From Gautieria morchelliformis (lineage: Eukaryota; Basidiomycota; Agaricomycetes; Gomphales; Gomphaceae), in contig WHVA01000335.1 in assembly GCA_015179125.1 (NCBI GenBank), positions 62,001-126,000 on the forward strand: DNA of 64,000 bases, read 5' to 3'. Made by a program: the position numbers and the translations under genes. Of this stretch, positions 21,779-57,448 are shown in pieces; position 1 is the stretch's first letter; every line of letters begins with the position of its first letter. Below the pieces are notes generated by a model, which saw nothing but the letters and a program-made list of their open reading frames with translations, ran no database searches and was not told the DNA's origin.

Positions 21779-22092
21779 CTAACCACCCATGTGGGCCCAT
21801 ACTCTGGCATGTGCACGCGCGGAATTTAATATTTGTGCAGAATGACACCCATACATCCCTGCTGAGATCTTACTAATTTAAACTGTCTCCTGGACATCTT
21901 TGGAAGAATTTCGTCAGAAATTCTTCCCAAGTCGTTCAGGAGGTGACGATTTAAATTGGTAAGACCTCAGAATGGTTTCTCACTTCATGCTGACATGTAT
22001 GAGTGTCAATTCGCACAAATATTAAATTCCGCGCGCGCGCGCACCAGAGTATGGGCCCACATGGGAGGATATGGGTGGTTATGTACTATTAG
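21779..22092. repeat. Large palindrome made of two facing element termini
   Basis: The left arm (about 21779-21853) and right arm (21998-22092) are inverted copies sharing ACCACCCAT, GTGGGCCCATACTCTGG and GCGCGGAATTTAATATTTGT. The left arm ends GACACCCATA and the right arm starts TATGAGTGTC. The ~144 bp between them (21854-21997) is itself an imperfect palindrome (TCTTACTAATTTAAA versus TTTAAATTGGTAAGA). A third copy of the arm lies at 47284-47377. Confidence 0.8.
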
Positions 22093-22534: not shown

Positions 22535-24069
22535 CTATATCAGGTCAGCCCAAGGATTATCCGCTGTTGTTTTAATTGGACTGTTAAATCCACCAAGCTT
22601 AGGATTCTTCATCGTTGCCTTGAAAGCATTGAATTGTGCTTTGACTTTGGGGGTAGAGAGTCGCTTAGGGAGTGCTGAGTCCAGAGCTGTTATTTCTTGC
22701 GGGGTGGGAAGAACTAATGTTGATGGTGACCCTTGCTCACTATCGGAGCTAATGACATATATGTTATCTGGTCCTAATCATACAAGTCAATGCATGCTCC
22801 AGCTGTGGATTAAAAGAGCATACCTGATTTGATTTCTTGAGCATTTTCGATGTCAGAGGACCATTGGAAGTCATCATTGTCATTCGGAATTGGAGTGGCA
22901 GTGTAGGATTTAGAAGTGCGTTGCTTCTTTGAGCGCATATAATGCCTGTGCCCAAGTTCGGGTTCGTCCTCAAGCTCTGCATCTGCTATGGGTATCATTA
23001 ATGAAGTCTGCTGCCATCTTTTAAGGTAGTAATGGATATACTTACAAGCTGAGCGCTTTGATGTTGATGCACCCTTTCCTTCCAGTTCGTGTATGATGTC
23101 GCTCAACCGTTTTCGGGACACAGGCCATGATTATCAGACAACACTGTGGACAAGTTCAGATGTTCAAGGCTTACCAAGGTATAGCTTACTGTCTTGCCAG
23201 CCTTTACTCTTACCGCCTTTTGCGTCTACAAAGTCATATCTGTCGGAAACTTCACGATGCAGGGAGAGGCGCGAGCGGCTTGCTTTCAGCAGGCGCCAGG
23301 TAACTTCACCTCCATCCTTTGCAACTTCATCCATATACTCAAAGGCAATAGGTAGCATCTCCCGCACCCATTCATCAAGCTTCCGATGGGACCATTGGTT
23401 TGAGAATTCCAATTCGCCAGGACTACCAAATATAGCAAAACCAGCCTTGCTTAGCTGATCGATACGTTGTAAGTTCAGCTCTGCTGTTTCATTCAGTTTC
23501 CCCATATCCTATGATCTCAAGGTAAGTCTTATAATTAATCAAGAAAACCTTTTTCTCACATCCATTCCTTCGGGCATCACTGTCAGCTGTCGCACACTTA
23601 TTGATATCTCTCCACCATTGCTATGTTTCTGTTTTCGGCCCTTACCCCCTTTCCGACACTGCGTATATCTTGATTAGTGGACATCAAATAAATATTTCAA
23701 AGTAAGTCATACCTTACTACTACTGCCCTCATTGTCACTGACTGCCGTCTTCTTGAAGCCAGCAATTGCTTCCCAACATGTATCATCCTCGCTTGCACGA
23801 CCCTTCCCCTTCATGTCCGATTTCACGGCACCACCCACAGCAGCGGCCTGCACTGTGAATGTTGAAAGTAAGTCTTCAAAGGATTGGTTACCTGTCGATG
23901 ACTGAGCAGGTGATGCAGTATGATCTGGTATTCAATGCCACACGATTGTGTGCAAGCAGCCGGTGCAACTGCTTGCCTCATTAACCCCAATATTTGCCTT
24001 TGGAACAAAGTGTGGACATGAGCAAAGGGTACCATCCTCTGCTCCAGAGTGTTTGCACTTTTGGGCCAT
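22535..24069 (-). pseudogene. Element X accessory protein with Cys cluster, left copy
   Basis: It lies directly downstream of the integrase on the same strand. From the ATG at 24069 the protein begins MAQKCKHSGAEDGTLCSCPH, then SSCTGCLHTIVWH, giving a CxC...CxxCxH pattern shared with the right copy. An in-frame TGA follows at 23932-23934. Later exons give a conserved middle block (FAIFGSPGELEFSNQWSHRK, SLHREVSDRYDFV, KSKGWQDSKLY) that aligns with the right copy. A linker contains KKQRTSKSY, and the C-terminus ends NPWADLI before TAG at 22535. I know no family for it. Its pairing with the integrase in both copies suggests a DNA-binding or transposition cofactor. It may be inactive here because of the TGA. 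Confidence 0.6.
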
Positions 24070-25809
24070 GGACTGGAAGTAGAATAGTGAAAGCAAGAAA
24101 GGGTGTGAAGTGCTCGGTTTGTGATGGCATATAAATTTTCACGCGTAGCCATGCATGTCTCGTTCACTCGCATCTTAATATAATGTAGTTTTGAAAGAAA
24201 ACACTATGGGATCTGAAATTTACAACAATGGGATGAGACGTTGTGAAGCATAGTCTATCACACATAATAACTTTTCGATGAACGAGCATATTCTTGATGA
24301 TCTGAAAGGTACAGTACGTATTGGAGTTGAGTACAAGGTAAATTATGCCTACTATATGTCTTCTAGTTGATATAGTAGTGTTTGCATAATATGAAGCCCT
24401 TGCGACCATACCACAGCATGAGAGTACCAAATAGACTCTGGTAGCTCTACAACCAGTTCTTGAGCCCGACGTCCCACGCGGATAGTCTCGTATTCCTGAT
24501 AGCCATCCTCCCACTCAGCTGCTATCACTCCGTACCCATCAGGGATTAATCCCATCCCACGAGCTTGATCGAGTGCTGCAAAAAATATCGCCTCATGAAG
24601 TGGATTGCTGAAAGGTGGCTGGCTTCGAGGGACACGTATGGCAGGATGATTAATATTGGCTTGAACGTCTATTGCCAACTGGTCTTGTAGTGTGTCATGA
24701 TTCTCATCCTCATCGCCAACTTCTGAGTCCGAAACACTGCTATCTGTGTAGGTGTCAGCAGCCGGAAGTGACTGTGAGTCATCATCCATGTCTGAATCTT
24801 CTTCGTCCGGTGGATGACCAGCCCCTGTCAGACCTGCATGATGGACAATGGAGCCATGTGTTGAATAATACCTCTGAAGTGTGTCTGGATGGATGTGGTC
24901 GTACTCGGAGGCCATCGTGCCATGTTTGGCATTACTAAGAAACCGCATATCCTACAGAAAATGTCAGTTATTAATTACTATTGAAGAACTTAACACTTGC
25001 AAGCGGGCTTCTGTTATTGGTACTAGACATTGGGTGATTGTTCCAATAATCTTTGAACGCATCCCAGTCAGTGTTTATGAGATCAAGGAAAAGCTCCTGT
25101 AAGAGCCATAGATGATGAGGGTTGAGGCGATCCAGATGATGGTAATTTTTCAAGGCGAGCAAAAAATGCTCGCCAACGGCGGCTGAACTGAGTTGCAACT
25201 TCGACCCATATTCGCTCAATACGAGTGTTATGAGTTGACCTAAACAAGAAATGAACACTGATAGGTAAATATGTGCAAAATAACTTACGACCCCCACATA
25301 AAGGAGCCATGTGATGGTCCACGGTGCATTATCATCCAAATGGCAAGCTTGATATTTTCACCGCCACGATCTCCACAGACATGCGATGGACAGCCATACT
25401 CAGTTACTGCATTCAAAAACAAGTCCAAGATGGTAGTAGCACGATTATTGGTGCTGGCACGCAGTGCAACCACCTGTTCTTAGTGTGAGTATGAAATATT
25501 TATGTTGCAAAACTACATACTGTGTGATCATGTCCGTCCACGCCTCCATGAATAACAATTCCATACTGGATCAGTTTGTGCAAGCCATCAAAGTGCCAAA
25601 CGGTATTTGACATGGTGGAAACGTATTTGCGGCATAGGAGCGTATGTTAGGGATCGTCCACAAAGTAGCTACCTATTTATGAACATTTACTAGGTAGTTA
25701 ATTAGTTTCAAATGTCCTCAAGGAAGGTTGTATTAATATTTCTATGCTACACTCACATTGGGTCCACAAGATACAACAATCTCTTGATAGTTTAGCTAAG
25801 AATCCCCCA

Positions 25810-26010
25810 CGGTCACATGACTATCACATGACCTCAAAACAGCTCAAAGTCACCTGATCATCCACAGTCACCTGACAATCACCTGACCTCAAAGTCACCT
25901 GATTATCTACAGTCACCTGACAATCACATGACACAGTCACATGACCTCAATCCAGCATGAAGTCACATGACTTTCCTTCGTCACATGATAATCACATGAG
26001 CGTGGGAGTT
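25810..26010. repeat. Cluster of TCACATGA/TCACCTGA motifs in the LTR
   Basis: At least a dozen short degenerate repeats of the form (G/A)TCAC(A/C)TGA(C/T) occur in 200 bases, with spacing of about 10-20. The placement upstream of the TATA box suggests an enhancer-like part of U3 or simple repeat expansion. Confidence 0.6.
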
Positions 26011-26200
26011 TCTTACATACTCTTAGCTTTACTGTCACAGAGCTGTGACTTTAACCCAATATAGCAATAGAACCTTCCACAGCCTTCCAATAGTTTCCAA
26101 ACCTTTCCTGAAGCTTCTCTAAGCTTCCACAAGGTTCTTCACAGTAGTAGAAGCCTCTACAAGGTTCCTGGCAGTAGTTACATAAGCTAGATAGATGCAG

Positions 26201-26208
26201 TATAAATA
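26201..26208 (+). promoter_or_regulatory. TATA box of the solo LTR
   Basis: TATAAATA followed by GCCTGCAG, about 190 bases after the motif cluster. The position is suitable for the LTR promoter, which implies the LTR is in plus orientation. Confidence 0.5.
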
Positions 26209-27841
26209 GCCTGCAGTTTTAGCAGTGAAGCAATCAATTATCTTTCACCCAAACCACTCATACCTTGAGTAACTGAAGTGTGACTTCAACACAGCCTTGT
26301 ACCGAAGTACTGGCTCACTGACTTGGCTACAGTCTAAGATTGCAGCAACTCTGATTGGCTCTGAGAAGTACAAGAGTGCTCTATTTTAATTGCAGCAGGC
26401 TCTGACTAATCGCGCTGCGAACAGCAACATTACTAAGAGTAACTGATTAGTAATCCTGTACCATTAGATGCCACTCTGAGCAGTGATCTAATAGACTTGG
26501 TTATTAGTTATTCAATTCACACAATAGATTATTAACTTAACTCTGAGTTAAGTGGGTTAATAGCCTTTTGAGTAATTGATCTTTCTTGATCAATCAACGC
26601 ACTGCAGATATTAACCTAACTCAGGGTAAGTGAGTTAATATCATACGTTTGTTGAGTTGGAAAACCAGAAAAGCCACAAGAATAGTGACATACTTGAACT
26701 GAGGAAGAGTTCAAGCGCAGAACTATCTTTTCACGTCTTGGGGATTATTGTTGTCTTTAGTTCACTCGACCTGCGGTCCTAAGACTCTAGGTAGCTTTCC
26801 CCCTTAAAGTATCTGGACCCTTGGACGCCTATAAACATTCTTTGACCTCACAAAGTATTGCACAATCTGAGAACTACATGTGTTCAGTTAAATCTCTATT
26901 GCTACACTTCCTGTACCAATACTGATTCTGATTGTTCACCGGAGTATAATTTCTTAATTGGGTTCTCCGTTAAAATAGTTTCGAAGCTTGCGTGTGCTTG
27001 TAAAGTCAAATCTCTGATTGAACTTTAGAATTGTGTTTAACACCACAGTTTTACGTTTAGTTCAACGGGTTCCAAAACAGCGTATCATGTTGGCGGAGTG
27101 CCTGTCCGAGGCCGTCAACTCGTTGCAGTGATTTTCGGACACGCTCCTTCTGTATCCGTACACCATGGCGACCTAGGAATCCCATTGTATATCGAAGTCC
27201 AGAGTTTGGACGAAGCTGCTTGTGGAGTTTAAGTAGGAGATCAAGCTCTATATCATTGAGAGTAGAGACGCGTTGGCTGAGTCCCATTTCTTGCAGCTTG
27301 TACCTCAAAGTGTTCCGGTGTATTCCTAAGAGCTGTGAGAGAAGTTGTAGACTAAGGCGGCGATTCCCAGATACCGCATCCTGCATCCACTCCATGTTCA
27401 GTCGCTTTGTTGGCAGGCCAACCCGTCCGGTATGGATAGTGGTGACAAGTTCCATCCTAGATACGGTCTTTGGCTCACTAAACAGGTGTGAATAAAGAAT
27501 GATGACCCAAATCAGAAAATAAGAAAGACGTACTTGTCCTCTGCTCCTTTTTGAGCGATTGCCAGCTCCACCAGTAAATGACATAGACATTGTGCACATG
27601 TCTTAAGCCATGGTGCTGGTAGCTGAGTAGGTCCCAAGTTCCTCAAGAGGTGGAAAATACGTCCTTGTATGAAATCTAAGTGGTATTTGATACGCAGCGA
27701 GTCACCATCCTCATGGTGGAGCACATGTAAAGCTTGCAAATATGACCTAGAAATAACCTGATGAGCTCTGTTGATGTTGTGTCCCCACCTGCTTGGTGGA
27801 CCTGGACCTGGCAAATCTGGGAATGTGGGTAGGAGGACCAT

Positions 27842-27937
27842 GTGTGCGACAGGTATCGGAGTTTATTTTGACTTCCTTTACTCGTCACCATTGCTTCTCA
27901 AAGTTCTACCTGCAGTTTTCTACTAATACCATAGATA
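27842..27937. promoter_or_regulatory. Shared divergent promoter region, integrase and BTB genes
   Basis: Only 96 bases separate the two start codons; the right copy has about 53 (53125-53177). Conservation of the divergent layout with so little space implies a bidirectional promoter. Confidence 0.45.
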
Positions 27938-28914
27938 ATGACTGTCATTACTCGCCATAGTGAGTTTTACCTAGAAGATGGTTCAATCACATTACAGGTA
28001 TGAGATTCTAGTTAGATTACAAGCTAAAACTAAATACCGGTCCAGATTGAAAATGTCCTCTACAAACTCCATATGTCACTCCTTCGCAAATTTTCAGTTG
28101 TCTTCAAAGACATGTTTTCCATGCTGGCAAGCTCTTCACAGCCCCACCATGAGGGAATGAGCGATGAAAGCCCCATTATACTGGGTCTGCCATTTACAGT
28201 AAAAAAAATGGACTATTTATTGTCGTGGTTTATGTGTCGGTAAGCCAGCATTAAATCAAATTTATTAATGGTTAAACTAAAACACCCTAGCTATAGTTCA
28301 GATCCTCCCCCCTTAGAGGGGCTTGTTTCGATCCTTGAGCTCGGAACGTTTCTACAGATAGATGTCGCCAGGACCTTTGCAATCCAGGCCCTCTCAAACA
28401 CTTCCCTGAACCTTTCTCCTGCTTGGCGGCTCTCTCTTGCACTTAGATTCTGAATCAGTAACTGGATCGGATCAGCTTATAAAGAGCTCGTTGTGACACC
28501 AGCTCATCGACTCAGCCTGGAGGATGTGTCATTGTTAGGTCTCGCGATCATGCGTATTATCCACTCTACACAGTCAGAAATCCGCCATCTTCGCCTCGGC
28601 TCGCATATAACCCACTGAAGATGGAAAAACACGATGCATCGTGCAAGAGACCCGCTCTCGGCTGCCAGGCTAGCTGGGAAGCTGCCTGGTGGGATGGGTT
28701 TGCACGCCATTATTTGCATCCAGATCACCCGTGCACACCGCTCGAAGCACCCGCAAAGTTCGAGTCCACAAATATTGTGGGTGTCACAACAGCCTGCAGG
28801 CTTCAGGCCGTGGAACTTATCAGAGACCACGGAGTTTTTGACAGGGAATATGGTATATTGGAGGAGGGACTGAAGTTGCTTAAGAAGTTTGAGGGAACAG
28901 TTGTTGGTGTTTAA
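27938..28914 (+). pseudogene. BTB-domain protein of element X, left copy
   Basis: ATG at 27938 (MTVITRHSEFYLEDGSITLQ), an intron, then IENVLYKLHMSLLRKFSVVF, KDMFSM, ESPIILGLPFTVKKMDYLL. This is the BTB/POZ core as found in mushroom BTB proteins. After another intron come the helical C-terminal segments LVSILELGTFLQIDVARTFA and ISNWIGSAYKEL, and a tail with CQASWEAAWWDGFARHYLHP. The lesions are an in-frame TGA at 28451-28453 and a frame change near 28605, before YNPLK. BTB domains mediate dimerisation and often Cullin3 binding. The gene shares its upstream region with the divergent integrase gene, so co-expression is likely. Confidence 0.65.
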
Positions 28915-29024
28915 ATTTTTTGATTTTATGCCGGTCTTTACTGCTCACTATCAGATTACAATACTCATTTAATTAATGGTATTAATTTTTTTGATTACAA
29001 AATAAATAATTCGACAATGTTGCG

Positions 29025-29065
29025 CACGCGGGGAAAACGACTTTTTTTGCAGAATGACACCCATA
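29025..29065. repeat. BTB-side terminal repeat of element X, left copy
   Basis: Read inward on the minus strand it starts TATGGGTGTCATTCTGCA, then AAAAAAGTC and CCCCGCGTGCGC. It shares GTCA, TGCA, AAAAGTC and the CCCC block with the TIR of the right copy. The outer flank is GGGATG. Confidence 0.65.
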
Positions 29066-47283: not shown

Positions 47284-47377
47284 TAATAGTACATAACCAC
47301 CCATACCCACCGATGTGGGCCCATACTCTGGTGCGTGCGCGCGCGGAATGTAATATTTGTGCGAATTGACACTCATA
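47284..47377. repeat. ~95 bp terminal repeat matching 21998-22092 in inverse orientation
   Basis: Its reverse complement starts TATGAGTGTCAATTCGCACA and stays nearly identical to 21998-22092, ending ..GGGTGGTTATGTACTATTAG. It is followed by GACATG (47378-47383), the same hexamer that precedes 21998. Confidence 0.85.
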
Positions 47378-47383
47378 GACATG

Positions 47384-47739
47384 TCCTGCAGGAGTATCTA
47401 CCCTTGTTTGAGTTCGCATTCGAGAAAGTTCGCTTCCCAAGCCGCGAAGACAAAAAGCACCTCGCACACATCTCCGGGATGTCTTTTCGCCAAGTCAGCG
47501 TTTGGGTGCGTCTCTCCACAATAATCTCCCTTACTCGCTATAATCCTTGCGAACAGTTCCAGAACCACGCTGCCGACAAGCCTCCCGCGCCAAATCAAAC
47601 CACGCCACAAGACTTTCAAGGAGAGGAGGAACGTCTCGGCGACTCTGCACGAGAGGCACTGTCGAAGCCACACCCACTCGCGAAGAAGCTTAATCCCGAC
47701 CCTATGAACACCACGGTACATCCGAACTGCGTATCCTGA
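47384..47739 (+). pseudogene. Homeodomain protein fragment
   Basis: The frame reads EYLPLFEFAFEKVRFPSRED, KKHLAHISGMSFRQVSVW. An intron (47506-47556, GTGCGT...ACAG) then joins FQNHAADKPPAPNQ, so the splice rebuilds the helix-3 signature VSVWFQNH. The layout PSREDK..LA..SGMS.RQVSVWFQN is that of fungal homeodomain proteins. Sequence upstream is replaced at 47383 by the repeat end, so the N-terminus is missing and the fragment is probably dead. Basic residues usually following WFQN are not seen, and the tail after helix 3 is short. Confidence 0.65.
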
Positions 47740-48957: not shown

Positions 48958-48963
48958 GGTGAG
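48958..48963. repeat. Target duplication GGTGAG, left
   Basis: Identical to 57443-57448. Confidence 0.8.
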
Positions 48964-49000
48964 TATGACGGTCAGTTTGCACAAAAAGTCTTGACCCCAC
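48964..49000. repeat. Left TIR of element X, right copy
   Basis: 37 bp, starts TATGACGGTCAGTTTGCAC. Confidence 0.9.
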
Positions 49001-49222
49001 GCGCGATTCAAGGTATTTCACTGCTCGCGTGGTACTAGAGTGTATTTGTTGGTGATAATTATTAGTCCCGGCGTATTCGGACTCAGATAAAAATTATTAA
49101 GTGAGCGTGGAAATATTTTAAGTCAGAACGCGTCCACTACTCACGTCCACTCGCGTCCACCACTCATATCCATCGTGTCCACAGCTCCACTGCTCCAGTA
49201 CAACCTCTGCTTGATATCCCTC

Positions 49223-50265
49223 ATGCTTCCAGTCCCTACATCATCGTTTTATGGACCCAGGACCGAATCCCCGACCCTGTCGACACCACCGGCTGTGATC
49301 GACCCGGTCCTGCTCGCCGCCGATATTCGCGTCCCTGCTCCACCCAACATACATGGGTCGGCAACCTCCTTGGGTGAAACTGGGGCAGGCCAACCTATCA
49401 AAACGCGTAAGTCACGCGAAGAGTTCACATCACGGGACCTCAAACATCTTCTGGGTGCCATGATCGACATCAACCCGTTTATGGCACCCCGTTCTAAAAT
49501 TGGCGATCGATGGAAGGAAGTGACTGAAATCGTGCAGGCAAAGGGGTTCTGCCAGAACTGGGAGCCTGAGACATTGAAGAACAAGGTTTCATCTCTGTTG
49601 GGATGGGTCGAGGTATGTGATCGTTTCCTGTCTCATTCACCACATTCTGATGATTATATTTACAGGGGGGGGGGAGAAGAAAAAGGCTCGGTCACCTCTT
49701 GGCAAGGAGCTTGACAGTGATCCGGCCGGTTTCGCTGCACTCTCAGGGAAGCTAGACACGATCCAACACCTCAAAATACAGGCGAAGGATATGCGTGAGG
49801 ACCAGAAGGCCCATGCCAAAGAAGTGAGTCTTTTTTTTATTAATATTTTTAGATACTAAGTATCTACAGGCCCAGAATCGGCTTCGGGCAGCTGGAGAGA
49901 TCTTCCGTGCCTCCATGATGCACGGCCACAAGCCCATGGCCATGAAGCGCACACGTCCCTCCACTCCCTCGTCCGATGGGGAGAGCACGAAAGAGAACTC
50001 GCCGGTGGACAGCCCGCTGGAATCTGGCGGGGAAATGTCAAAGAGGATGCGACTCACAAGTGTAAGTCGTGTCCATTCACGTCGTGATATGGCAAAGGTC
50101 GCTTGGCTCATGGAGAAGAACGACGCACGTGAGGATCGCAAGGAGCAGAAGATGGAGGAGTTTCATGCAAGCCTTCTTGAGAGGCATGACAGGGCCATCG
50201 ATATCCAAGAGTGGACGTCAACAGCGCTCTTGGATATCTTGAGGCAGGGTCTGCTCAATAACTAG
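49223..50265 (+). CDS. Harbinger Myb/SANT-like DNA-binding protein
   Basis: ATG at 49223 in three exons (49223-49612, about 49666-49823, 49870-50265). The first exon holds a trihelix/SANT-like domain: FTSRDLKHLLGAMIDINPF, KIGDRWKEVTEIVQAKG and ETLKNKVSSLLGWVE. The second is charged (GEKKKARSPLGKELDSDPAG). The third begins AQNRLRAAGEIFRASMMHG and continues as a Ser/Pro- and Lys-rich, helical tail with KRTRPSTPSSDGES. In this superfamily such a protein binds the nuclease and carries it to the DNA ends. No stop interrupts the exons, so it may be functional. Confidence 0.8.
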
Positions 50266-50575
50266 TACTTAATTACTAGTACTTAATTTCTTGTTATACC
50301 TCCAGTTTCAAAGTAATTTCAGAGTAATTTCTTGTTAAACCTCCAGTTTCAAAGTAATTTCAGAAATTACTTTGAACTAGTTTCACAAATAATTTGTTAA
50401 ACACAAAATTTCATAGTCATTTCAAAGTAATTTCACAAATTAGTTCAAAGTGATTTCTGAAATTACTTTGAAAGTAATTTCAGAAATCACTTTGAACTAA
50501 TTTCACAAATAATTTGTTAAACACAAAATTTCATAGTCATTTCAAAGTGATTTCACATGAGGCACAAGCACAGCT
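50266..50575. repeat. Repeats between the convergent Harbinger genes
   Basis: AT-rich units such as CAAAGTAATTTCA occur many times directly and inverted. A ~65 bp block (GAACTA.TTTCACAAATAATT onward) is repeated at about 50374 and 50494, 120 bases apart. It may act as a two-way transcription stop. Confidence 0.7.
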
Positions 50576-50581
50576 ACAACA

Positions 50582-51823
50582 TCAAGAGTGAAAATAATCA
50601 TCGATGGAGGGTGGAGGACATGAATAATGCTGGGAGGTCTGATTCGGCTCAATGCATGCACATGCATTGGTGAGTAACACGGCCACCCGATACATGAGCC
50701 TGCACGCATTCCCAAGGATCTTGTGCTTCCAAAAACACTGTAGGTACGGCCAGTCTTGTAAAACCAGCCCGAAGCCGTGCTCAACCGAGATACGCACACC
50801 ACCCATGGCGGCGTTCCATTGCCGCTGTTGAGGGGTCAGGGCATCAGTCCCCGCATAAGGGCTCACGATGTACGGGCTTACACCGTAAGCCGAATCTCCA
50901 TACAGCTGAAAAAAACGGTGAGATAGCGGATCACCCTCATTTGACCCTGGCTGGATTGCCTTCCTCTCGATGTGCCCCAGGAGTCCGCTTGCATTCAAGA
51001 CACCGCTGTCATTTTGTGGTGCTCTGTATGGGCCATCGAGGTGAGCGAACAGTCCGTCTGGGGTCACGACCCCCTGAAATTTCATCCCATGAAATTTCTT
51101 GTATCCAGTATAGGCCAACTCTTCCTGCCTCACTGGGCGGCAGGTCTGGCGTATCGTGCAGTTGATAAACCCGAAGACCGACTGGGTTGGAGCCCCAAAA
51201 TCGTGGAGAGCGCGTGCATATATCTGCAGTCTCTCAGGGCTGAGAAGACCCTCGCAATCCCACCCAAGCAAGTGGCCCCAGCGCACATTGATGAACATCG
51301 CAGTTTCGTTCATGATCTGTGAGATCGCTGGCTGCGTGCGGGCATACTTTGTGGCCAGGGACCATTGGTCCTCAGGGCTGCGGAGACATGCACAAAGGAG
51401 GGCGAATGACTCGAGAGGGGGGGATCGGTAGCCCCCACTGGTAATCAAGGGGTCTGGGAGCTCTAAGAGTGAGCTGAGGTGCTGCAGCTCCTCTACTGTG
51501 AATCTGAAAAGCCTGTAAGTTTCCATAACTGAATGACACCAAAGGGCTTACCGAAAACGCCACAAGCTTTCTGCCTCACTGATGCAGCATAGATACTCAA
51601 CTGTGACGCGTTCACCCCCTATACTAGGTTGTGGCCTCACTCTCTGCATGAGTACGGCCTGTGCAGCCAGTCCGTTCATGCTGGAACCGGTGGCTTCCTG
51701 AGAGATCGTGGGGAGGTGCGGTCGGGTGTTGAGGAGATAAGGTATAAGAGTGGACGCCAGGACACGTTTCTTTGACGGGTCGACTGGCATGGCAGGCAGG
51801 AGCGTACGTTTTTTAACACGCAT
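50582..51823 (-). CDS. Harbinger DDE nuclease (HARBI1-like)
   Basis: Exon 1 runs from the ATG at 51823 (MRVKKRTLLPAMPVDPSKKR) and exon 2 ends at the TGA at 50582. The intron between them keeps the frame (ESLWRFR-LFRFTVEELQHL). The DDE_4-type core has VFGFINCTIRQTCRP, ELAYTGYKKFHGMKFQGVV, PDGLFAHLDGPYRAPQND, QLYGDSAYGVSPYIV and GVRISVEHGFGLV. The second Asp (GDSAYG) and the Glu (VEHGFG) are kept. The position of the first catalytic Asp reads Asn (FINCT where FIDGT is usual), so this copy may be catalytically dead although its frame is intact. Confidence 0.85.
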
Positions 51824-51949
51824 TGGTCACGTGTTCGGTTTAATTAGCTGTCCCTATTTGGTATTTTTATCTTTACAGGCGCTTATATTATAGGTTGCTA
51901 ATATTTTATTAGTGATTTGATAATTATTAGCTAACAAATACACTCTACT

Positions 51950-52133
51950 GAATAATATCCAAGTTGCGCGCGCGTGGGGTTCGGGTTGCACGCACACAAC
52001 AGCAAATTTACTTTTGTACATGATACCTCAATATATCTCGCGCGCAATATTGTTTCAGTACTAGTTCATTGAATTATCAAGACATTGGTGGTGCTAGGAT
52101 TTATCAAGAAACAACGGCTCATCACAGTCAAGT
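51950..52133. other. BTB-side terminal region of element X, right copy
   Basis: Non-coding, with GCGCGCGCGTGGGG near 51966. It joins 49036 when the Harbinger insert is removed. Confidence 0.6.
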
Positions 52134-53124
52134 TCAGTTGACTCTAACCACAGTTCCCTTGAGAGCCTTAACCTTCTTAAGGGTTGCCGCCTTTATATCA
52201 TCCTCCATCTCGAACACACGTTGCTCCTTAAGGGTTTCAATCCCTCGCAGCCGACATTCCATCGTAACACCTGTGACAGCAGTCTTTTCCAGTTTGAGAA
52301 GAGTGTCTTGCGGTGAGCTCAGGAAATCCGGATGGAGATAATGGCGAGCTAATCCATCCCACCAGGCAGTCTCCCAGTTACACTGGCAGGTGGGTGACTG
52401 CTTCACGCAGGCAACGTCATGATGTCGTAGTTTCAGTGGGTTGTAGGCCACAAGGAGTCAGTGATGACGAATAGCAGCCTGCGTCGTCATAATAAGCATC
52501 ATGATGTGTTGTCCGAGTAGCATCGAATCCTCGGTAGTAAAGGTTTGGGGCGGTGTATCCATTAGATCTTTGAATGCCGGCTCAATCCAGTCAGAAATCC
52601 TGTAACTAATGGCTAAAGATAGCCGATGCGAAGCTGTCAGACCGCTGTCCTTTAATGCTTGGATCGCAAAGTGCCGTGCAGTGTCCCATTGGAGGAACAA
52701 AGCCAGCTCTAATATGTCAGTCAGCGCTGACACATCAAGAACTGTCAAATCAACACTACATTTGTTAGTTAGACACAGTATTCAAGAATAGAAATTGACT
52801 AGAATGCTCACCGATGAAACCATATGAGGAGATTGTCTAATTTCCTCACGGTAAATGGAGCTCCAATCTTTATTGGCCGCTCATCACTGTCCCCTTCCCA
52901 GACTGACTCATCACTGCCGCTAGCAGCAGCTGGCATTGTGAACATATCTCTTAGTACGATAGAGTGAGGTTCAAGAAGGGACATATGGAGTTTATAAAGT
53001 GTATTATCAACCTAGAAGGATAGTGGTTAGCTGGATGGAATATATAACTATAAATGCATACCAGAAAATTGGTGGAGCCGTCACACCAGTAGAACCTTTC
53101 ATGGTGAGTTGGACCCAGGTGCAT
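52134..53124 (-). pseudogene. BTB-domain protein of element X, right copy
   Basis: Exon 1 (53124-53062) encodes MHLGPTHHERFYWCDGSTNF. Exon 2 (53011-52812) encodes VDNTLYKLHMSLLEPHSIVL, RDMFTMP and ERPIKIGAPFTVRKLDNLLI. After an intron with a CTAACTAAC branch site comes the helical part LTVLDVSALTDILELALFLQ, SLAISYRISDWIEPAFKDLM. A TGA at 52458-52460 interrupts the frame, which then continues in phase (LLVAYNPLKLRHHDVACV, ETAWWDGLARHYLHPDF) to 52134. The fold is BTB/POZ followed by a BACK-like helical region, close to host mushroom BTB proteins. It is transcribed away from the integrase, with about 53 bases between start codons. One TGA is the only lesion seen. Confidence 0.7.
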
Positions 53125-53177
53125 TGGTGGCGGAGTGAAAAATGCAATTGAAAGTCCGATGACTCAGAGCGTAACTA

Positions 53178-55187
53178 TGTCCATCGAGCTGCCAGCGACA
53201 TTCCCAGCTCTCCATGGCCCTGGGCCGCCAAACAATGATGTGGATCAGGCCTATAGACTTATCTCAGATGCTTATAATAGTTCTCTGCAGCTGCTTCACC
53301 AGGATGACCTCGATCCGTTACGTGTCCACTTCCATCTTGATCGCCTCCAGAACTGAATAATCCCATTATACCGTGCCCTACCTGTGGAGACCCTCCCACA
53401 AGATTGGGTTAGAGGTGGTGCACATGCTTTGGGGAAGCTCTTGGTGACCCTGCGTGTGACAATAGCAGATGCAGAAGATTGGTAAGGTCCTTTCAATCGA
53501 ACGATGCTATACTCTGACCTCGTTGTTTCTAGGGAAACCTTACATAGGTCCAAACCAACCTTGATCACTACAACACCTACACCAGTTGGACGACCAACAA
53601 AAGTAATTAATGGCAACTGGCTTCAACAAGCCGTCTTGGCCACTCGAAATCTCAGTCAAAAAAAAGTTGCTTCGATCTTGGGAATACATAGAAATACGCT
53701 CCGTTACAAGCTTCGGAACATGGGTATACATAAGCGATTTTCAGACCTCGACGACAATGATCTGGATCGTATCCTCAAGTTGTACAAACATCTTCGACCC
53801 AATTCAGGGCTTCGGTACGCAACAGGCTTTCTGCGATGTCATAACTTCAAAGTTCAGCGGGATCGTGTGTGTGAGGCATTGAAGCGTATCGATGGTTTAG
53901 GTCGTGCACTCAGGCGTCGAGATGCCATATTACGCCGTAAATATGTCTCTCATCGTTCTGGTTCTGTTGTGCACATTGACGGCCACCACAAATTGATTCT
54001 GTGGGGAATCATCATCCATGGGATGATTGATGGACATGACCACGTTGTAAGTGCCCATATTTTATAGAAATAACGCTCTTATCACACTTATGCAGGTGAC
54101 TGGTCTGCGAGCGAGCACAAACAACTGTGCTGCAACCGTCCTCGAGCTATTTTTGGACAGTATTCGCAAATTTGGCTGTCCCTCCCGGGTTCGTGACGAT
54201 CGAGGAGGCGAAAACCTCGATGTAGTCGTTTGGATGATCATGCATAGGGGGGCTAGACGGGGCTCCTTTTTATGGGGGTCGTAAGTGCATTTATACATTC
54301 ATTGCCTTGCATTTGTTTAATAAGTCCTTCAGATAAACACACAATACTCGGATTGAGCGCCTGTGGGTCGAAGTTGCAAAGCAATTCGTTCGGCAATGGC
54401 AAGGATTCTTCACACGCTTAGAAAGAATGCATCGACTCAACCGCGCTAACCCCCACCACCTTTGGCTTTTACAACATCTATTCTTAGATCTCATCAACGG
54501 GGATTGTGATTCATTCGCACAGGACTGGAACTTGCATCCACTATCAGAGCACAGCAATCAGAGTCCCTTGGTACGTATCTTCACATTTGTATGCACTCGA
54601 TGTATACTGAAGATATGCAGGATCTGCGATTCATTAATGAATCGCTTTACGGGGCAGCAGTCAAGGAGTTCGAAGATATTGATCCCGATATTCTGCAACA
54701 GTACTACAGCATACTTGGTAACCCAACTCACCAAAGATCCCGACAGACCGGTGCTGGATATCCATCTGATGAAGAAGACTTGGGCTCAGATGCCACTATT
54801 GGGTCTGACACTGGATCTGTGTCTGACATTGAAGATTCGGAAGAGAACATCCTACAGCAAACTATCTCCTCCCACATTCACGCTAACATCAATCATAAAG
54901 CGGTTAAATGCCCTCGAAGTCGCTGCCCCTTTGCCGATCCAGCACATGTTACGCTTTTGGATGCGGTGCTACGTGACCTGCAAGCAAGCGGCCTGATCCC
55001 TGTTGGGTATGGCCTCAGGACATCGGAATGGGTTGGTGAGGAATACCCAGCATCGGAGTGGGTTAGGTTTGGGCGAAACAAGGGGGTAATGGTAGATTTA
55101 CCATCAGCGATTTGGATGCCCCGAGCTATCACTTGGGTTCATGGTCTATATGCCATGCAGACAGTTCTATACCATTTTTCTAACTAG
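53178..55187 (+). pseudogene. Element X integrase-like transposase, right copy
   Basis: Start MSIELPATFPALHGPGPP at 53178, or an in-frame ATG 43 bases upstream. The N-terminal part is homologous to the left copy but carries a TGA at 53354-53356 (RLQN*IIPLYR, where the left copy has no stop). Then come the HTH (ASILGIHRNTLRYKLRNMGI), HLRPNSGLRYATGFL, and the core: first Asp in VVHIDGHHKLILWG, second in RDDRGGEN, Glu in HNTRIERLWVEVAKQF. The C-terminal extension is acidic (YPSDEEDLGSDATI), has PRSRCPFADPAHVTLLDAVL, and ends AMQTVLYHFSN. Several short introns interrupt the gene. The core resembles the animal/fungal 'integrase core domain' class (rve-like). Apart from the TGA it reads intact. Confidence 0.8.
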
Positions 55188-55358
55188 TAGAGATCGAAAG
55201 ATATGAATACATCATTCAGTTTCACACCTTGAGCCTGCCGAGTCCCGCCCAAGCGGATGTGATTGTATAAAATTACAGTTCTATGTGATAAAATTTTCTT
55301 AAATACCACTTTTCAGTCTACACAGGCACCACCCCTCCCCCCCACATCATACTCTCCT

Positions 55359-56958
55359 ATGGCTCCTGTTTTATCCAGATGCTCACGGGTGGAGATCACT
55401 GACGAAGCCGAAATCAAATGTCGCTGCCTAATGTTCGTCCTCAAAGCAGCTCCGGATGAGGATGAAATAAACACATGCGACGAGTGTACTCACAGTATCT
55501 CGTGGCACATCAACATCACGCCTCCTTCGTCGCCACCTCCTAGCGGGTTAACAGCAGCTAAGATGGACGCTATTCTATCAACGTACCTTAATGGCACCCA
55601 GCCTTCAGGGAACAACAGTGCCAGTGGCAGCAGTAGTGGCAGTGGCAGCAGTAGCAGCAGTGGCAGTGCCGCTATTGGGAGCGTCACCAACAAGCGATTC
55701 CAAGCTAAAAGCTCGGAAGGAGAAGCTAGAAAGGAGGCCCTCTCTGGTTTGAAGAAAACAGTTCTGAATCTGCAGTCAGATGAGGATTTCAGTCCGAAAG
55801 TAAGCTCACATATATATCAGATTCCCTATGAATAACGCTATCAACTGCAGGGGAAAGCTGCAGCGACGACTAAAGGGAAACGGAAGAAGCTTCTGGCAGT
55901 TGCCGGAGCTACCAGTACAGATGACAGGTTTACCAGCATCCGGATGATCATCTTCCTGCCTTACGGACTTAATGTAAGTTTCATTGCCTTCTCACTCACC
56001 TTTTTTCCTCACTTTCATTCCAGGAAGATGGTAGCTTGATAAGTACAGATGAGCCGACAGCACAACAGATTGATGAACTTGCAAAGCTCGGGTATGCTGC
56101 AATCAGAAGCCGGTACAAGTTCGGTGATAGCTGGGATGTCGATCGGATTGATCAGTGGTTGCGTGAAACATTACCGCTTCCATTTGAATGACTGGATATT
56201 GCTGCTGCGGACCTACCTGACCACAAGCACCAGTGGCGACTCCTCAAGACTCGCCGGTCGCACCTAGAGCTCCACCGTGAGATGCCCGACGGATACGACG
56301 TTAAAAGTGTGAAAGGGTGTAAGAGCAAAGGCTGGCAGGATACCAAACTGTTCTTTGGTAAGTCTAATATCCATTAAACCAGTTTATTAAGATTATTAAC
56401 TACAACTAATTAGTGACTCGCATCCCCATTCCTGAAATTATCGAGGCAATGGAAGATATCACCGTGCAAGCTCAAAAAGGAAAGGGCAAGGCTGTACGCA
56501 AACGGAGGGCAGGTAAGCTCACTTGCATGTCCACCTAAGCTGATTACTGACCATTCATTCTTAAGCCGATGCTGACAGCGATGACGATGTTTGTGTGGAG
56601 TCGAGCACTCGTTCAAAGAAGCAGAAAGTCACTCGAAAGAATCGTAAGTCATACGCACACTGGTTCTAACATACGAAATCCAGCGAACTTACAAATCACA
56701 GGTTTGAGCAATTCTGATGATGACTATGTGATGCCTGGCCCCTCTGGAAAAGGTAAGAAAAGGACTCGACACAACCACGACAATGATGATACAGCCTCAA
56801 TCGATACTGCTACTCTTGAGGAATCGTTCGACCGCTTTGAAGCCGTTTTTAAACCCGCACCCAAGTCCGGAAAGATTCATGATTACTCCACCCCTCCCGC
56901 CACTACTCCTTGCTTTTGGAACCTGAACCAGGGAGAAGATCAGTCAGATCTGCATTGA
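55359..56958 (+). CDS. Element X accessory protein with Cys cluster, right copy
   Basis: ATG at 55359, about 170 bases after the integrase stop and on the same strand. It starts MAPVLSRCSRVEITDEAEIK, then CRCLMFVLKAAPDEDE and NTCDECTHSISWH, a CxC...CxxCxH pattern aligned with the left copy. A Ser/Gly-rich linker follows (GSSSGSGSSSSSGSA), then basic blocks (GKRKKLLAV). The conserved block is AKLGYAAIRSRYKFGDSWDV, RSHLELHREMPDGYDV, KSKGWQDTKLFF. Nuclear-type basic stretches (KAVRKRRA, KGKKRTRH) and the C-terminal FDRFEAVFKPAPKSGKIHDY complete it. Six or seven short exons are implied and no stop was found within them. The family is unknown. Its role as a DNA-binding cofactor is inferred from position only. 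Confidence 0.65.
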
Positions 56959-57405
56959 CCATCACCTTCAAGCACCAATAATTCAACTGTTCCGCTCATT
57001 AATGATATTCTTTTAATAGCTTCATACCCTCCTAGTCCACTCTCCTGATCACACTCCTTTTTTAATAGCTTCAATACCCTCCTTTGTCTGCTCTCCACAT
57101 TATTATACTCTCTTTCCAACTAATAATAAATACATTTTAATTAAAAAAATATCCTCTCTCGATCAATAAGTGTTAGTAGCTTAGTCAACTAGGTGATGTG
57201 CATGCGCGACACTGACAATTCCGCTTGCGCAGGTTATGTTTTTTATAATGTGCTAGTGTAAAACTACATATTTTAGCAGGTGCGCGCCTTATTATTCGCG
57301 CGCACCTCTGTTTTTTTGGGTGCGGCATGTACCTTGCGGCGCGCGATATGTACCCTGCGGTGTGCGGTATGTGCCCTACGGCGCGCGATTTTCACTCTCC
57401 AGCAC

Positions 57406-57442
57406 GTGGGGTCAAGACTTTTTGTGCAAACCGACCGTCATA
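57406..57442. repeat. Right TIR of element X, right copy
   Basis: Inverse of 48964-49000 with a single difference. Confidence 0.9.
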
Positions 57443-57448
57443 GGTGAG
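57443..57448. repeat. Target duplication GGTGAG, right
   Basis: Identical to 48958-48963. Confidence 0.8.

Follow-up and report, generated by a model that had tools for sequence, protein, structure and literature searches.

The window analysed here is a stretch of 64,000 nucleotides from the Gautieria morchelliformis genome (contig WHVA01000335.1, positions 62,001 to 126,000; contig C377 in the genome searched, which comprises 1113 contigs and 122 Mb). At positions 48964-57442 it contains a multi-copy DNA transposon with inverted ends, which carries three genes between its terminal inverted repeats (TIRs). A DDE integrase-like transposase gene (53159..55187, + strand) is flanked by a divergently oriented BTB-like gene (52134..53124, - strand) and by a gene for a Cys-cluster protein, here called G3 (55359..56958, + strand). 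An earlier note, made from the letters of the window, had proposed a three-gene TIR transposon with these borders, and the ends, the flanking duplication, the empty sites and the gene order bear it out. Its account of the make-up of the element was right as to the three genes, but overlooked a nested PIF/Harbinger element (49037-51946) and the stop codons that interrupt all of them.

The left TIR (TATGACGGTC..., 48964..49004, + strand) and the right TIR (57402..57442, - strand) were both located by an inverted-repeat search, and other copies end in the same way as the left arm. The inverted ends described earlier are real, but their length of 37 bp is not: the arms pair over 41 nt, with 39 of 41 positions complementary (95%). 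The window element has TATGA at both ends, and its sister families have TATGG at one or both. The hexamer GGTGAG lies on either side (48958..48963 and, adjoining the right TIR, 57443..57448), as had been noted, and is present as a single copy at two empty sites (L050 and L051). When the window flanks are joined through one GGTGAG, they match elsewhere in the genome without gaps over 154 of 160 and 154 of 162 bases. These empty sites settle where the element ends and that the duplication is 6 bp long, with no reliance on a pattern.

Related copies have the same structure. Twenty 10-kb regions with related transposases were fetched, and 10 of them have TA..TA TIR pairs with exact 6-bp duplications; the scan was restricted to TA ends and 6-bp duplications and run without a shuffled control. 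The ten duplications are GCTACC, ATCTAA, CGCATG, TGGCCA, CAGCCA, TCCGGG, GTAAAT, TGTCCC, TTCCAT and CTGCCG. The other ten regions yielded no such pair that could be counted; several show a single end, or ends with unlike flanks. One further copy, on contig C139, is split by a nested member of the family and has an ATTTTG pair on its flanks. At L032 (C148:188280-198270), parts of an element form an inverted duplication across about 5 kb with G3 matches on both strands, and two pattern matches at this locus were dropped because of this internal inverted duplication.

Eleven insertions have exact duplications, and ten of them were queried for empty sites; L033, which lies in a satellite, was left out, and L045 and L046 were shortened. 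A site elsewhere in the genome with one copy of the 6 bp was found for seven of the ten, the window included. Besides the window, five insertions have gap-free empty sites (L042, 200/200 bases; L041, 198/200; L047, 194/200; L038, 183/198; L045, 183/187), and the site for L048 matches over 179 of 201 bases with 5 gap columns. Three insertions had none that could be counted: L036 (no match among those listed), L044 (a single match of 69%) and L046 (a match reaching only 13 bases beyond the junction); one empty-site search scored the best 40 of 250 candidates, and misses there mean little. These elements are insertions with a 6-bp duplication.

The transposase gene comprises five exons with approximate borders at 53159-53482, 53534-54048, 54096-54281, 54337-54570 and 54621-55187. 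Its start was set at the first Met of the open frame (53159), with 53177 as the alternative. The helix-turn-helix and the DDE integrase-like core read from the sequence earlier are both recovered by Pfam (HTH_8, 8.5e-06; rva_4 integrase core, 1.6e-51; weak rve, 0.011), and the residues named then fit a D-56-D-33-E spacing. Among the listed homologues P0001-P0120, 35 proteins have all three motifs, with spacings of 56 and 34 in 25 of them and different ones in the other 10. Neither the window protein nor any of the P0001-P0120 proteins with the DGHHKL motif has an H2C2 pattern ahead of the core. At least 153 homologues score at E 0.001 among 7991 candidates, and nearly all the named ones among the 120 matches listed come from Agaricomycetes. 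The mushroom homologues are mostly annotated as hypothetical or as 'integrase catalytic/core domain' proteins.

The earlier note matched the element to no named superfamily, which no longer holds. According to partial views of the published descriptions, IS3EU has TA..TA ends, usually 6-bp duplications and no HHCC motif, and GingerRoot has 6-bp duplications, mostly TA..TA ends and likewise no HHCC motif (PMC10045372). IS3EU elements of rust fungi are described with 6-bp duplications, TIRs longer than 30 bp and TAYGG..CCRTA ends (PMC12730594). The window element has TA..TA termini by both the inverted-repeat search and the empty sites, a 6-bp duplication that is supported by gap-free empty sites for six insertions and by L048, a 41-bp TIR, and a DDE core without an upstream HHCC motif. 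This combination makes IS3EU the most likely placement, which rests on these published descriptions rather than on comparison with Repbase proteins. The end itself is TATGA at both termini of the window element and TATGG at one or both in its sister families, as against TAYGG in the rusts. IS3EU is already among the repeats recorded in mushrooms, as far as the excerpts go (PMC8955403, PMC12411881).

The likeness to Ginger-type transposons raised in the earlier note extends to an integrase-type core inside TIRs, the feature that Ginger1 and Ginger2 share with the window element (PMC2836005). However, the consulted part of that description gives both groups TGTNR ends, an H2C2 finger and 4-bp duplications (CCGG/CCGT in Ginger1; 4 bp in Ginger2, 5 bp in its TDD members), whereas the ends here begin with TATG, the duplication is exactly 6 bp at empty sites, and no H2C2 finger precedes the core. 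A Ginger1 or Ginger2 element is thus hardly credible. The ends, the length of the duplication and the gene content led us to reject Ginger and retrotransposon readings, and IS481EU was rejected on its duplications of about 4, 15 or 25 bp (PMC10045372, in part) as against the 6 bp at empty sites.

The element could also belong to a new superfamily, related to IS3EU, Ginger and IS481EU yet separate from each. Pfam places rva_4 first and gives rve no better than 0.011, the transposase profile finds no solved structure at E 0.01, and a search of open-licence papers by titles and abstract starts returned no description of the BTB and Cys-cluster set. We nevertheless consider this very unlikely, since TA..TA ends, 6-bp duplications and the lack of HHCC are stated for IS3EU and GingerRoot (PMC10045372), and the TIR length and the presence of extra genes have published counterparts within IS3EU. 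The rust elements encode an alpha-kinase and a TET protein (PMC12730594), and Styx of Zymoseptoria, linked to IS3EU by its authors, has a 36-bp TIR, 6-bp duplications and four open reading frames (ORFs), including putative DNA-binding proteins (PMC10853768); both sources were seen in part.

We therefore hold with good confidence that the window element is a multi-copy DNA transposon with 41-bp TIRs and 6-bp duplications, most likely a branch of the IS3EU superfamily, whose DDE transposase is accompanied by two constant partners, one likely a BTB protein and the other predicted to bind zinc. The superfamily already has a name, and it is the gene set that looks new. The earlier claim of novelty stands to this extent, as the set was not found in the literature searched. 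It is absent from the consulted description of IS3EU and GingerRoot, which otherwise agrees in ends, duplications and a DDE transposase without HHCC (PMC10045372). The rust elements are similar in being multi-gene and in having a partner read against the transposase, but differ in their ends and in their alpha-kinase and TET partners; 'BTB' is not mentioned anywhere in that paper's main text (PMC12730594), and no Pfam alpha-kinase or TET match was obtained among the proteins scanned here. Styx differs in partners with GATA, CCHC and DUF3577 domains, a distinction drawn from the partial description rather than from sequence (PMC10853768).

The BTB-like gene has about three exons. Its first Met codon lies about 34 or 52 bases from that of the transposase, depending on the transposase start chosen, and such close divergent starts suggest that the two genes may share a promoter. 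A BTB fold is suggested by several weak signals. Pfam BTB was matched in 3 of 23 relatives (best 7e-4), and the L044 protein scores 0.092. In a structure comparison of the model, in which Z was low and the N-terminal quarter was barely tested, 12 of the first 16 rows come from six BTB proteins (KLHL11, SPOP, KCTD7, KBTBD2, KBTBD4 and NPR1). The partner might instead be an unrelated helical protein: Pfam BTB gives no match for the window protein or in 20 of the 23 relatives, the model has no Foldseek match under E 0.001, and the profile matches solved chains only at E 0.12 or worse, none of them a BTB protein. Given the three Pfam matches and the six BTB proteins that fill the top structure rows, we find this alternative improbable and refer to the partner as BTB-like. 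It was found only in Gomphales and in unassigned metagenome proteins.

G3 is encoded by several exons. Its layout consists of a C-x-C-x16-C-x2-C-x-H-x4-H pattern, followed by a conserved core and a charged tail, and the protein is predicted to bind zinc. The structure model was not used (predicted local distance difference test, pLDDT, 33). Outside Gomphales, G3 matches proteins of Galerina (P0068, 2.6e-7) and Favolaschia (P0051, 5.8e-6), and one iteration including these two adds Psilocybe (P0083, 2.6e-5) and Tetrapyrgos (P0025, 4.4e-5). In these four public gene models of Agaricomycetes, a G3-like protein is fused behind the transposase, which probably reflects missed gene borders. Since G3 also follows this transposase in gene models of other Agaricomycetes, it is probably the older of the two partners.

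The gene set is constant across the elements compared. All 12 TIR-bounded elements, namely the 11 with duplications and L039, which is without one, share one arrangement of the BTB, transposase and G3 genes in both order and orientation. They belong to three families, one of which contributes eight close copies and the others two members each. In the two families other than the window's, about half of the residues or more differ from the window, and G3 is the most diverged of the three genes, with about 30-50% identity in matched pieces between families. Across the genome, a divergent BTB match lies within 2.5 kb upstream, at distances of 733-2170, for 44 of 64 merged transposase loci; at one locus the only BTB match is on the same strand, and 19 loci have none. 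Conversely, such a transposase accompanies 44 of 63 BTB loci. A same-strand G3 match lies within 4.5 kb downstream at 38 of the 64 transposase loci, G3 on the other strand occurs at 2, and 37 of 50 G3 loci have a transposase, counted with G3 queries of two families.

The two divergent genes also have agreeing trees. In 43 linked transposase/BTB pairs, the identities of the two proteins to the window are correlated (rho 0.86). The transposase tree has 5 long-branch splits, and each of them is also present among the 6 of the BTB tree; support for the five in the transposase tree is 0.64-1.00, with one at 0.64. The trees include 20 of 21 loci, L031 being left out because its BTB piece is too short. 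In an unrooted tree with moderate support, the Ramaria BTB proteins branch among those of the Gautieria families, so the BTB-transposase pairing is probably older than the split of the two genera.

Ratios of nonsynonymous to synonymous substitution rates (dN/dS) between families are low. Against L034, the window gives 0.09 for BTB, 0.15, 0.03 and 0.33 for pieces of the transposase, and 0.14 for exon 1 of G3; against L035, it gives 0.14 for BTB and 0.08 and 0.12 for the transposase. These ratios are rough, because dS exceeds 1 in four of the five L034 values and in the L035 ones. For other pieces dS was beyond measure, and the 'G3_core' rows, whose frame was wrong, and the L041 BTB row, which drew on a neighbouring copy, were disregarded. 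Within the window's own family, dN/dS between close copies varies between 0.17 and 4.31, which fits copies in decay.

These results bear on the possibility that the two extra genes are passengers, captured from the host and not involved in transposition. Gene capture by fungal transposons is on record in the part of the rust study available (PMC12730594), and the restriction of the BTB partner to Gomphales and unassigned metagenome proteins would suit such an origin. Yet three families, about half of whose residues differ, retain the same genes in the same order, the transposase and BTB trees agree, and dN/dS is low between families. We regard passengers as the less likely explanation, though one that retains some weight, and favour constant partners of the transposase.

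The window copy itself has one in-frame stop in each gene (BTB, 52458-52460; transposase, 53354-53356; G3, 56189-56191) and is probably inactive. Among the genome-wide transposase matches, some of which are near-identical copies, 69 of 77 in-frame stops are TGA. This excess hints at decay of CGA codons through CpG methylation. CpG ratios are 0.63-0.80 in the elements and 0.80 in the window; they reveal no clear extra decay and so lend this no clear support.

The nested PIF/Harbinger element (49037..51946, 2910 bp, - strand by its DDE_Tnp_4 ORF) is not part of the host transposon, which measures about 5.57 kb once it is subtracted. It has 14-bp ends (AGAGTGTATTTGTT), a 3-bp ACT duplication on either side (49034..49036 and 51947..51949) and a transposase ORF at 50582..51526 on the - strand (DDE_Tnp_4, 5.3e-21), and thus combines the transposase, short TIR and 3-bp duplication of PIF/Harbinger. 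Strong AT-rich palindromes lie at 50306-50554. The family has many partial matches across the genome, and many matches of the left-end query start only at this insert.

A second, diverged BTB/transposase/G3 set occupies 22544-29065 of the window on the opposite strand, with an end at 29065. Its BTB gene lies at 27938-28911 (+), its transposase at about 27464-24358 (-) and its G3 at 24060-22544 (-). Another end, at 21853, has no partner, and the CATCCC that follows it is the reverse complement of the GGGATG found next to the end at 29065, which looks as though one of the ends had been inverted. The set is contained in a 25.4-kb unit (21998-47377), whose IS3EU-like ends are alike over 75 of 80 bases and which has GACATG on both sides; its joined flanks match elsewhere across the junction in one stretch, for example over 188 bases at 87%. 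The unit also contains a Gypsy-like element (gag, Ty3 capsid domains), a hAT piece and parts of an eIF3c gene, and it either moved as one or grew through later insertions. It seems to break up one gene of a repeated, homeodomain-like family at 47290-47736 (Homeodomain 8.8e-4, below its cut-off), with many similar places on many contigs.

In the mechanism we propose, transposase multimers would bind the TIRs through the N-terminal helix-turn-helix, cut the element out and join it to the target with a 6-bp stagger, the repair of which would leave the 6-bp duplication. Both partners would most likely assist the transposase: G3 would act as a cofactor that binds DNA or bridges the ends, and the BTB protein, as an addition of the Gomphales lineage, would serve as an oligomeriser or adaptor. 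A bolder version, which we put forward as a long shot, is that Agaricomycete IS3EU elements are multi-protein machines. Their transposase would work only with G3, and Gomphales would have added a BTB-BACK adaptor that draws in or takes over the host's Cullin-3 ubiquitin machinery, to time the disassembly of the transpososome or to remove a silencing factor.

DNA transposon superfamilies are mostly defined by the transposase alone, while here two more genes are kept across several families. Such transposons may depend on long-kept partner proteins. As the partners are retained with agreeing trees and signs of purifying selection, whether transposition needs them can be put to a direct test. A BTB-like protein encoded by a transposon would be a partner of a new kind, and G3 offers a marker for annotating IS3EU elements in mushrooms.

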